From: a virus
Reading direction: 5' to 3' (one strand)
DNA length: 45,113 nt
IMG/VR virus record: IMGVR_UViG_3300021364_000044
Location: 1 to 45,113 of that record
A program made the translations under genes and the position numbers. The notes below the pieces were generated by a model. That model saw only the letters and a program-made list of their open reading frames with translations, searched no databases and was not told where the DNA came from. Shown piece after piece: positions 16,028 to 31,174 of the stretch (position 1 is its first letter; the number at the start of each line of letters is the position of its first letter).

Positions 16028-16337
16028 CTCTTGTTAGAATCTCTAGGAGTTTCTTTTCGTACCACTCTGCTTTCTTTAGATCCTCTATCCCGTTCTTGTA
16101 AGGGAACCTCCAGCGATACTTCAGACTGTTTCCGCGTAAGTACCCAATGAACTCTTCTTTGGTTAGCATGGCCTCGATTCCGTCGATGCACTCGATGTCC
16201 CCTTTGTTGTAGTGTTCAGGATTATTAACAGGATCTAGCATAGCGTTTACTACTCCGTATTTTTTTATATTATCTCTAACTGAGTTCCACTCTGCTGTAT
16301 CAGCGTTATCAATAGATTTTTTAGTTCGTTGTTTCAT
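16014..16337 (-). CDS. DUF3310 protein
   Basis: 107 residues. Residues 35-100 match the DUF3310 pattern closely: DPVNNPEHYNKGDIECIDGI, MLTKEEFIGYLRGNSLKYRW, then KNGIEDLKKAEWYEKKL. This family occurs in many phages next to nucleotide-metabolism and replication genes, and is sometimes labelled nucleotide kinase-like without proof. ATGA overlap with endonuclease I. Confidence 0.9.
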   Translation of the reverse strand: MKQRTKKSIDNADTAEWNSVRDNIKKYGVVNAMLDPVNNPEHYNKGDIECIDGIEAMLTKEEFIGYLRGNSLKYRWRFPYKNGIEDLKKAEWYEKKLLEILTRDEKE

Positions 16338-16828
16338 TCTTGTTCCTCCGGGTAATCTAAGTTTTCCTCTATCTTAGATTCAGGGTCAACCCAATCTTTC
16401 GGTATGCTATATACGCTATACCATCTAAAGCCGTTGGCTTCTGCCCACTCTGCATGAGATCTTTTTGTTCCGTCTTTTCTTCTAGTTGCTCCGGGCATAG
16501 GAGCGGCGGGGTCAGCAAAAAGAAATACAAGCTCTATGTTTTTAGGTAGAGCTTTTTTAATCCATACATATTTATTGTGTTCGGCGTGGTCCCAAAAGCG
16601 CCCCTTTGCTTCTAGGAATATTGTTTTACGACCAAACTTACGAATAAAGTCAGGGTGATAGGTATGTTCTACAATATATTCTGTAGTTGTACTGTGAATA
16701 TCCCACTGCTTAAGTATGCCTGAATGTAGCTCATACTCCCAGTTAGAATCATAGCCTTTTACTACGTTCTTTTCTACAGGCCTTTTAACTCTGCGCTTTC
16801 TTAAGCCTGATTTAATTCTTGGAGCCAT
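16334..16828 (-). CDS. Endonuclease I (T7 gp3-like Holliday junction resolvase)
   Basis: 164 residues; ATG 16828. Resembles T7 endonuclease I: an acidic residue in SNWEYEL (Glu31), TYHPDF (Asp60) and FLEAKG (Glu73, Lys75) line up with T7 Glu20, Asp55, Glu65 and Lys67, the metal-binding PD-(D/E)XK set. The enzyme resolves branched DNA and helps degrade host DNA. The conserved stretch FADPAAPMPGATRRKDGTKR follows. Slightly longer than T7 gp3 (149). It overlaps the gene upstream by 28 bases. Confidence 0.88.
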   Translation of the reverse strand: MAPRIKSGLRKRRVKRPVEKNVVKGYDSNWEYELHSGILKQWDIHSTTTEYIVEHTYHPDFIRKFGRKTIFLEAKGRFWDHAEHNKYVWIKKALPKNIELVFLFADPAAPMPGATRRKDGTKRSHAEWAEANGFRWYSVYSIPKDWVDPESKIEENLDYPEEQE

Positions 16829-28496: not shown

Positions 28497-28537
28497 GCCT
28501 TATTAACTCTCTCAAGAAACTTGAGAGTTAATAAGGC
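28497..28537 (-). terminator. Long intercistronic hairpin, copy 1
   Basis: Inverted arms GCCTTATTAACTCTC / GAGAGTTAATAAGGC pair perfectly over 15 bp, with a further CAAG/CTTG inner stem and loop TTT on the minus strand. It begins eight bases after the stop of the 56-residue gene. There is no U-run after it on the minus strand, so it may be an mRNA 3'-end stabiliser or processing site rather than a true terminator; a TTTT tract follows on the plus strand. Nearly identical to copy 2. Confidence 0.75.
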
Positions 28538-29110: not shown

Positions 29111-29157
29111 AAAGGCTTATTAACTCTCTCAAGAAACTTGAGAGTTAATAAGCCTTT
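29111..29157 (-). terminator. Long intercistronic hairpin, copy 2
   Basis: Arms AAAGGCTTATTAACTCTC / GAGAGTTAATAAGCCTTT, 18 pairs, with the same inner sequence as copy 1 and a TTT loop on the minus strand, starting five bases after the stop of the 50-residue gene. On the minus strand the stem runs into TTTTCTCC, so it could act as an intrinsic terminator or attenuator here. Confidence 0.8.
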
Positions 29158-29376: not shown

Positions 29377-29871
29377 TTAGCCTTGAAGATGTGCAAGGAT
29401 AGATTCCATACCAGACTTAATAGTCTCGATAGACTCTGACATTTCAGCAATATCACCTTCAACGATAGTCATTCTAACCTTAAGATCATCAAGATCATTA
29501 GATTGCACCGGAGAAGCCTTTGGCTTAGGCGTTGCTTTTGGAGCTGCCTTTGGCTTAGCCTTAGACTTTGGCGCTGTAACCTTGCGGCTAGGCTTGTGAG
29601 TCTTAGACTTTTTGCCTTCAAAGTTTAGCTGAAGATTTGCTAACAAATAGCCAGGAAGCTCATCAGACTCAAACCATTCTGAAATCTGTAAACTCGATAC
29701 ACCCTTTGGATTGTTGGCAGCTAATACAGCTTCTACCTGCTTCCACAGTCTAAACCAATAGATATCGGGTATATTCTTTTGTTCCTGTACGACCTTTGCA
29801 AATTTATAAACTATGGCCCTGAATTGCTTGGCAGAGCAGAGTCGATCTTTTTTGTGTGCAAGTGTTTTCAT
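29377..29871 (-). CDS. First early gene: hypothetical protein with KAP-rich linker
   Basis: 164 residues, ATG 29871 with GGAG eight bases upstream. Residues 1-88 form a helical, Trp-rich domain (IPDIYWFRLWKQVEAVLA); residues about 89-122 are a Lys/Ala/Pro linker (KSKAKPKAAPKATPKPKASP); the rest is an acidic coiled coil. Basic flexible linker plus coiled coil suggest a DNA-associated oligomer. As the promoter-proximal gene it may act earliest in infection. The stop lies in the loop of a small hairpin (AAGGC-TAA-GCCTT). Confidence 0.75.
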   Translation of the reverse strand: MKTLAHKKDRLCSAKQFRAIVYKFAKVVQEQKNIPDIYWFRLWKQVEAVLAANNPKGVSSLQISEWFESDELPGYLLANLQLNFEGKKSKTHKPSRKVTAPKSKAKPKAAPKATPKPKASPVQSNDLDDLKVRMTIVEGDIAEMSESIETIKSGMESILAHLQG

Positions 29872-30173: not shown

Positions 30174-30543
30174 CATAATCAAAGATTATGGGGTCGCGCT
30201 ATGTACGCGAAGAGTTTTGGGGATTGACTTTTTTTAACTACAAAGTAGTTAATTTCATAAATCTTCATAGAATGAAGATTCTGGTTGCTGAAAACTTTGC
30301 AAGTCTTTGAAATCTTTGATTTCAGAAGTCTTTAAAGTTAACTTTAAAGACTCTTTAGAATCTCTTGAGATTCTGTCAAGCGGTCTTAAATTTGCTGAGT
30401 TTCAAAGAAACTTTAAAGAACTCTAGAATCTATAGATTCTATTTAACATCGAAGATGTTAGCCGAAGGTCACTCTAAAGTACTTTAGAGTGCTTCTGAGT
30501 CTAAGAGACTCAGGGCGGGGCAGGAGGCCAGACGGGGTACCCC
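30174..30543. repeat. Array of twelve or more different short palindromes
   Basis: Consecutive inverted repeats, all of different sequence: 30174-30190 (7 bp arms, loop AAA), 30194-30210 (5 bp), 30234-30252 (8 bp, AAA), 30260-30280 (9 bp, AGA), 30294-30304 (4 bp), 30308-30324 (7 bp, TTT), 30327-30352 (26-base perfect palindrome), 30357-30374 (8 bp, TT), 30398-30412 (6 bp, AAA), 30424-30441 (18-base perfect), 30444-30460 (7 bp, GAA), 30470-30491 (22-base perfect), 30495-30513 (8 bp, AAG), 30534-30543 (GGGGTACCCC). Words such as AGAATCT and CTTTAAAG recur. Because repeats are not identical it is not CRISPR. Confidence 0.85.
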
Positions 30544-30601
30544 CTATATATACTAATGGGCATACATTTTAGGAAACTTTGGAGTGTCAAGTAGAACTAG
30601 G

Positions 30602-30665: not shown

Positions 30666-30728
30666 TCTATATTATCTATATGTAACCGGGGGCGGCCGAT
30701 TACGTTAGTATAGCTTCAGATTTTATTT

Positions 30729-30784
30729 TTGTCAAGTTGTTTTTTTACTTGACAACAACTTTAAGCGACCCTATACTACTTGAC
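30729..30784 (+). promoter_or_regulatory. Operator-like inverted repeat over the terS promoter
   Basis: TTGTCAAGT (30729-30737) and ACTTGACAA (30747-30755) form a perfect 9-bp inverted repeat covering the -35 box, and ACTTGAC recurs at 30778-30784 over the start site. A further GTCAAGTAG at 30586-30594 is the exact reverse complement of CTACTTGAC at 30776-30784. This spacing suits a repressor or activator that loops or spans the promoter. Confidence 0.55.
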
Positions 30785-30785
30785 A
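30749..30785 (+). promoter_or_regulatory. Consensus sigma70 promoter of the rightward late unit
   Basis: TTGACA (30749-30754), a 17-base spacer and TATACT (30772-30777): an almost perfect host-type promoter. The start site, six to eight bases after the -10, falls at 30783-30785, that is on the ATG of terS at 30785, so mRNA from here would be leaderless. Confidence 0.8.
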
Positions 30786-31174
30786 TGAATAAAGAACTTA
30801 CAGAAAAACAACAGTCTTTCTTAGACCACCTAGTGGAACAAGGAGGTGATCCGAAGAAGGCAGCGGAGTTGGCTGGGTACAATAGTGGTCATTATCAGGT
30901 CGTTAAATCTTTAAAAAAAGAAATATTAGATATCGCTGAAGGAATCCTAGCTCAGTCAGCTCCAAAAGCTGCTTTAAAACTCGTAGAAGTTATGAACTCT
31001 GATCAGCCCATTCCTCAAGCTAACATGAGGATTCAGGCGGCTCAGACAATACTTGATCGTGTTGGTTTAGGCAAAACGGATCGCATTGATGTTAACCACA
31101 AAGCAGAAGGTGGTTTATTTATACTTCCATCTAAAAAAGAAGTAATTATTGAAGGAGAGTACGATGAAGCATAG
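30785..31174 (+). CDS. terS: Terminase small subunit
   Basis: 129 residues from ATG 30785. An upstream ATG at 30737 lies in the promoter -35 region and is not likely used. MNKELTEKQQSFLDHLVEQG GDPKKAAELAGYNSG is the N-terminal helix-turn-helix typical of phage small terminases, followed by a helical oligomerisation part and LGKTDRIDVNHKAEGG. It recognises the packaging site and hands DNA to the large subunit encoded two genes later. No ribosome site precedes the ATG, consistent with a leaderless message. Overlaps the next gene by 11 bases. Confidence 0.85.
   Translation: MNKELTEKQQSFLDHLVEQGGDPKKAAELAGYNSGHYQVVKSLKKEILDIAEGILAQSAPKAALKLVEVMNSDQPIPQANMRIQAAQTILDRVGLGKTDRIDVNHKAEGGLFILPSKKEVIIEGEYDEA

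Follow-up and report, generated by a model that had tools for sequence, protein, structure and literature searches.

Dissimilar perfect palindromes crowd the predicted leader of the first early gene in an HMO-2011-type phage

Why should a run of perfect palindromes, each differing from its neighbours, be packed into 370 bases ahead of the first early gene of a phage? The window analysed here is a whole virus contig of 45,113 bp, which its TerL, gene order and replication genes place among the HMO-2011-type podoviruses. Its TerL is 66% identical to that of Pelagibacter phage HTVC115P and 47–50% identical, over the matched part, to those of HTVC033P and HMO-2011. Alongside head and packaging genes, the contig carries a T7-like polymerase, a primase-helicase, endonuclease I and ribonucleotide reductase. 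The structural genes are oriented to the right, from terS onward, and the early and replication genes point left. HMO-2011-type phages are reported to be dominant and widespread in the ocean (PMC9038755); by keyword search, neither palindromes nor hairpins nor promoters are mentioned in that paper. The setting of the array is as follows, with the basis of each assignment in brackets.

16334–16828, minus strand: phage endonuclease I family gene, T7 gp3-like, of a junction-cleaving family (family match)
29377–29871, minus strand: gA, the first early gene, 164 aa (ORF; profile and structure prediction)
30540–30570, minus strand: strongly conserved leader element CTATATATACT...ATACATTTT in plus-strand letters, right of the array and near the cassette boundary (relatives)
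30678–30697, minus strand: strongly conserved leader element TATGTAACCGGGGGCGGCC in plus-strand letters (TATGTAACC..GG), close to where the leftward transcript should begin (relatives)
30707–30735, minus strand: predicted leftward early promoter TTGACA-17-TATACT, 11/12 to the sigma-70 consensus (consensus; conserved in relatives)
30749–30777, plus strand: predicted rightward promoter TTGACA-17-TATACT ahead of terS and the late genes, 11/12 to consensus (consensus; conserved in relatives)
30785–31174, plus strand: terminase small subunit, used as comparison gene; the same TerS occurs with and without the array (relatives)

Because of the two consensus promoters, the array is predicted to lie within a leader of ~0.8 kb belonging to the leftward early transcript, 5' of gA. 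The promoters stand back to back at 30707–30777, their −35 boxes forming an inverted repeat (TTGTCAAG...CTTGACA) that is conserved in relatives, and this pair is likely the switch between early and late transcription. The endonuclease I family gene is a possible candidate for a cruciform-processing enzyme. The divergent promoter pair, the association with gA and the extension of palindromes into the gA coding sequence of relatives, both described below, go beyond the first reading of this DNA. The array itself comprises the following elements, none of which is assigned a strand.

30174–30190: hairpin CATAATC-AAA-GATTATG; the loop is also AAA in relative L168 and ATA in L007 (repeat count and relatives)
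30234–30252: hairpin TTAACTAC-AAA-GTAGTTAA; TTT loop with identical arms in L337, L168 and L007 (loop inversion)
30260–30280: hairpin AATCTTCAT-AGA-ATGAAGATT; the loop is GTT in L168 (repeat count and relatives)
30308–30324: hairpin TGAAATC-TTT-GATTTCA (repeat count)
30327–30352: perfect palindrome of 26 bp, AGTCTTTAAAGTT/AACTTTAAAGACT (repeat count)
30357–30374: hairpin AGAATCTC-TT-GAGATTCT (repeat count)
30398–30412: hairpin AGTTTC-AAA-GAAACT (repeat count)
30424–30441: perfect palindrome of 18 bp, TAGAATCTA/TAGATTCTA (repeat count)
30444–30460: hairpin TAACATC-GAA-GATGTTA; TTC loop with identical arms in L337 (loop inversion)
30470–30491: perfect palindrome of 22 bp, CACTCTAAAGT/ACTTTAGAGTG (repeat count)
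30495–30513: hairpin CTGAGTCT-AAG-AGACTCAG (repeat count)

The earlier note had described this stretch as a dense run of differing perfect palindromes, more numerous than chance would give, and on both counts the description holds. Positions 30174–30543 contain 12 perfect inverted repeats with arms of at least 6 and loops of 0–4, and 500 dinucleotide-preserving shuffles per arm-length class never reached such a density (mean 0.70, maximum 4). With arms of at least 7 and the same loops there are 10 repeats (shuffle mean 0.20, maximum 3), and with arms of at least 8 there are 7 (shuffle mean 0.05). The palindromes of 26, 22 and 18 bases that the note had listed are all present and perfect, as are the loops AAA, AGA, TTT, GAA and AAG. 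Inverted repeats with arms of at least 7 number 27 in the entire 45-kb contig, 10 of them inside the 370-base array.

Relatives were collected from IMG/VR by scans with TerL and four TerS queries, which gave 215 non-redundant upstream regions, mostly from metagenome contigs; the thresholds applied to them (arm length, and 4 or 6 palindromes) were set by us. These regions hold a mean of 4.14 palindromes against 0.34 in shuffles, and the counts are bimodal, with at least 4 in 109/215 and at most 2 in 94/215. The arrays lie at the same position, while their arms, which reach 23 bp, differ widely in sequence, so the earlier suggestion that structure is kept while sequence changes is borne out by the 109 relatives that retain an array. 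Word composition was considered as a cause and rejected: array regions contain 6.8 palindromes per 570 bp, and Markov models of order 1–5, trained on the relatives' own array regions, produce 0.2–0.7. The arms nevertheless have a compositional style. Left arms are G-poor and, read from the loop outward, run pyrimidine / A-rich / pyrimidine (e.g. L017, L062, L059); across array loci the arms are asymmetric, with C favoured on the left and G on the right, and loop composition is strand-biased, with 821 T against 479 A on the plus strand.

Comparison of homologous palindromes indicates how such arrays change. Over 35 independent pairs of contigs, compared pairwise and with independence that is approximate, the arms carry 50 complementary double changes where about 2.7 are expected (~18 times chance), and divergence is 4.2% in arms versus 8.7% in spacers. 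Coupling between the arms is not immediate, since close relatives differ mostly by changes in one arm alone (216, versus 50 doubles). Mismatches of the A.C type, which correspond to G-U in a leftward RNA, are not enriched in stems: 483 stems with 5810 pairs contain 42 G.T, 24 A.C and 134 other mismatches, and the new single changes in the 35 pairs include 60 G.T and 50 A.C. Loops change in a characteristic manner. Where a loop is fully changed and the inner arms of homologous palindromes are identical, the new loop is the exact reverse complement of the old in 8/12 cases for 3-nt loops and 11/14 for 2-nt loops. Seven loop flips were counted in 62 independent pairs, 3-nt loops accounting for 6/107 against 0.0007 expected from substitutions. 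The window itself provides examples, its AAA and GAA loops standing against TTT and TTC in L337 with identical arms.

The paired complementary changes, the lack of a leftward-RNA wobble bias and the loop inversions together place the evolution of the array at the DNA level, as far as sequence comparison can tell. Both paired complementary arm changes above chance and spacer inversion between identical arms are what a repeat maintained by template switching would display. When a polymerase switches template between inverted repeats, arm homogenisation and spacer inversion are the described outcome (PMC8604942); such switching is also able to generate perfect stems and preserve them (PMC8794818), and quasi-palindrome events increase with transcription in yeast (PMC3820800). 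Among the candidates put forward in the earlier note, a site where template switching keeps perfecting palindromes fits best, in view of the compensatory double changes and the loop inversions; such switching explains both the perfection of the arms and the flipping of the loops. The lower divergence of the arms need not mean selection, because in proteobacteria short inverted-repeat regions are likewise more conserved than their surroundings (PMC8604942).

The array is not a fixed property of its lineage. Mapped onto a terS-terL tree, its presence requires at least 25 changes, and phages that are nearly identical and share TerS and TerL either possess or lack an entire array-gA cassette. The close pairs L198/L196, L052/L251, L132/L136 and L015/L019 share the right flank and both promoters, and everything leftward is replaced. 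L049 and L051 share flanks on both sides (98.9% identity on the right, 85–93% further left, where homology returns ~3.2 kb to the left), and one of the two has the array. Judged from these comparisons, array and gA belong to a single exchangeable early cassette. No enrichment of palindromes is seen in sister phages that share these promoters but have a different first-gene cassette. Array-free cassettes (L051, L256, L262, L312 and others) carry, in the same place upstream of terS, another family of first early gene, “gB,” with ...LTVKDGEL... and a glycine/glutamate-rich stretch.

The partner of the array in this cassette, gA, is predicted to consist of a four-helix N-terminal domain, for which prediction confidence is high, followed by a linker rich in K, P, A and S and by a C-terminal helix or coiled coil. 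Searches of Pfam and PDB returned no convincing match, PHROGs gave scattered single-member hits of which none is credible, and the fold search in Foldseek had no significant match; annotated phages contained no match, and no relative was confirmed in the genomes of bacteria or archaea. A profile built from the gA of the window detects the gene at 53/54 loci with at least 6 palindromes and at 6/63 loci with 0–2, the remaining 57 being without gA and the six being distant homologues without an array. A separate gA-seeded search, with a narrow alignment, yielded 74 loci with enough upstream sequence, and at least 3 palindromes were present in 74/74 and at least 4 in 71/74. Apparent gA-less arrays (L072, L079, L082, L189, L357, L359) proved on inspection to be mostly short, sparse palindromes near the threshold. 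The association of gA with the array could reflect linkage inside one cassette.

Palindromes also enter the gene. Fifty-five diverse gA genes contain 136 palindromes against 15 in synonymous-codon shuffles; this is not universal, as the gA of the window has none with arms of at least 6. Palindrome coverage peaks at 33% in the stretch 300–400 bp upstream of the gA start, falls to 7% in the 100 bp adjoining the start, is about 10% inside gA, and declines to about 3% and then 1% past the stop.

A weaker form occurs in culture. HMO-2011, CRP-1 and CRP-345 have shorter palindromes enriched in the leader and first early genes, and within codons CRP-1 gp01 has 11 against 1.75 in synonymous shuffles and HMO-2011 gp74 has 9 against 1.1 (cultured loci: GU557055 53.2–55.3 kb, as L085/L088/L089; MK613343 1–1200, as L093; MZ892990 1–1500, as L490). 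Their first genes look unrelated, and searches did not identify them as homologues of gA, so palindrome enrichment does not require gA. CRP-2 and CRP-13 have a few palindromes only, just before the start of the record, and no array was found in CRP-738 or in the SAR11 isolates HTVC115P and HTVC103P.

We tentatively favour, at somewhat less than an even chance and with function inferred throughout, the view that DNA hairpins are under selection in the gA cassette, where they would most likely form a site whose shape is recognised by gA. On this view an exchangeable early cassette consists of a palindrome-rich leader and gA, and the array would be the part of it that forms hairpins. Strong leftward transcription or replication of this stretch would expose single strands, the palindromes would fold in DNA as single-strand hairpins or cruciforms, and replication would repeatedly switch template within them, matching arms and flipping loops. 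The cassette would retain the structures because they are useful at the DNA level, with gA, whose make-up is oligomer-like and includes a basic linker, as putative hairpin recogniser. A gA-hairpin complex might serve in autoregulation, in replication start, or in protecting or organising the early DNA as it enters; our preferred guess is autoregulation or else organisation of the early region. Selection is preferred because template switching alone leaves unexplained both the absence of arrays from sister phages and the thinning of palindromes at the start of gA and past its stop. The T-rich bias of plus-strand loops is unexplained by a strand-neutral DNA model. Taken to its full extent, this reading would make the locus an undescribed early-region element: a sequence-independent hairpin array recognised by gA through its shape, continually rewritten by template switching during replication, and mobile between phages together with its gene. 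That composite claim we hold to be doubtful.

Template switching might also act with no function behind it, making, perfecting and flipping tolerated palindromes as a mutational by-product of a strongly transcribed, R-loop-prone first early unit. Loop inversion and arm homogenisation count as signatures of mutation, quasi-palindrome events linked to transcription have been described in yeast (PMC3820800), the density of palindromes drops with distance from the promoter while they enter codons too, and the C-left/G-right asymmetry of the arms recalls the asymmetric stem pair frequencies attributed to template switching (PMC8794818). Against a by-product stand the sister phages that share the promoters, carry another first-gene cassette and show no enrichment, coverage that is low beside the gA start and falls past the stop, and arm divergence half that of spacers; we consider it possible but improbable. 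Hairpins acting instead in the RNA of the leftward leader and the gA mRNA, for gA autoregulation, termination control or protection from RNase, appear unlikely. The earlier note had offered a highly structured leader RNA, and some features suit it: the array is inside the predicted leftward leader, the start-codon region of gA is nearly hairpin-free, palindromes fade past its stop, and leftward strands fold with a z of about −6. The other strand, however, reaches −5.6, the G-U type is not in excess (24 A.C against 42 G.T in stems, 50 against 60 among new single changes), the loop inversions are DNA events, and an Rfam search matched no family, which counts against a known RNA family.

The remaining candidates place the array in replication, packaging or virion transcription. 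An origin or single-strand initiation site carried by the cassette, with gA as initiator or loader, would suit the nearby turn in cumulative GC skew (29.5–30 kb), the succession of promoter and AT-rich hairpin region, and the exchange of a site and an adjacent basic protein as a unit. The skew turn, however, coincides with the change in gene direction, and since L049 and L051 share flanks with the array in one only, that phage type can do without it, although the other cassette may hold an alternative origin; the origin candidate of the earlier note, if taken as obligatory for the core replisome, is thus disfavoured by near-identical phages that have or lack the array, and the wider origin reading seems to us quite improbable. 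For a terminase recognition or cleavage (pac/cos) site, also proposed in the earlier note, adjacency to terS is the one argument. Phages with the same terminase can lack the array, and the clean cassette swap in L198/L196, L052/L251, L132/L136 and L015/L019, with near-identical TerS and TerL, leaves this very hard to sustain. N4 virion RNA polymerase promoters are DNA hairpins with 3-nt loops, and several stems of 5–9 bp in the array carry such loops. Across array loci, however, loops of 3 nt are fewer than those of all other lengths (0, 1, 2 and 4 nt) combined and arms extend to 23 bp; the contig, which seems to lack part of the genome, has no protein the size of the N4 vRNAP, and nothing in PDB or Pfam matches its two largest virion ORFs (1223 and 1209 aa). 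We regard N4-type promoters as the least credible of all these readings.

Modules that pair an initiator with its site, and partition-type modules, usually conserve the sequence of the site. The phage array resembles them as a cis DNA site beside the gene of a likely nucleic-acid-binding protein, in one exchanged cassette, but keeps only its palindromic form, and binding by gA is putative. Template-switch (quasipalindrome) mutagenesis elsewhere likewise involves short perfect inverted repeats, paired complementary changes and reverse-complemented spacers, sometimes in coding sequence; those events are reported as scattered, whereas the phage array is dense, conserved in position across the group and tied to one cassette (PMC8604942; PMC8794818). 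Perfect inverted repeats in protein genes, with coding and DNA structure both kept, are also found in Nematomorpha, but these are mitochondrial, far longer (up to 284 bp) and lack the link to a leader and a single early gene (PMC6649704). Minute inversions in chloroplast spacers such as trnH-psbA are similarly associated with palindromes and variable among close relatives, but occur at individual palindromes and not in arrays (PMC2903610). The hairpin rule of Mimivirus is another case of palindrome-forming hairpin signals in a viral genome, there at transcript 3' ends and linked to polyadenylation, whereas the phage array lies in a 5' leader with no sign of RNA-wobble selection (PMC4402537).

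If DNA shape and not sequence is what is kept, some 100 rewritten arrays form a natural set in which to study template switching and the evolution of DNA hairpins, and they come with an associated undescribed protein, gA. The weaker form in cultured HMO-2011, CRP-1 and CRP-345 makes the question testable.

Elsewhere in the early region of the window, the 19-base hairpin CTCTCAAG-AAA-CTTGAGAG occurs twice, at 28509–28527 and 29126–29144, 617 bases apart.
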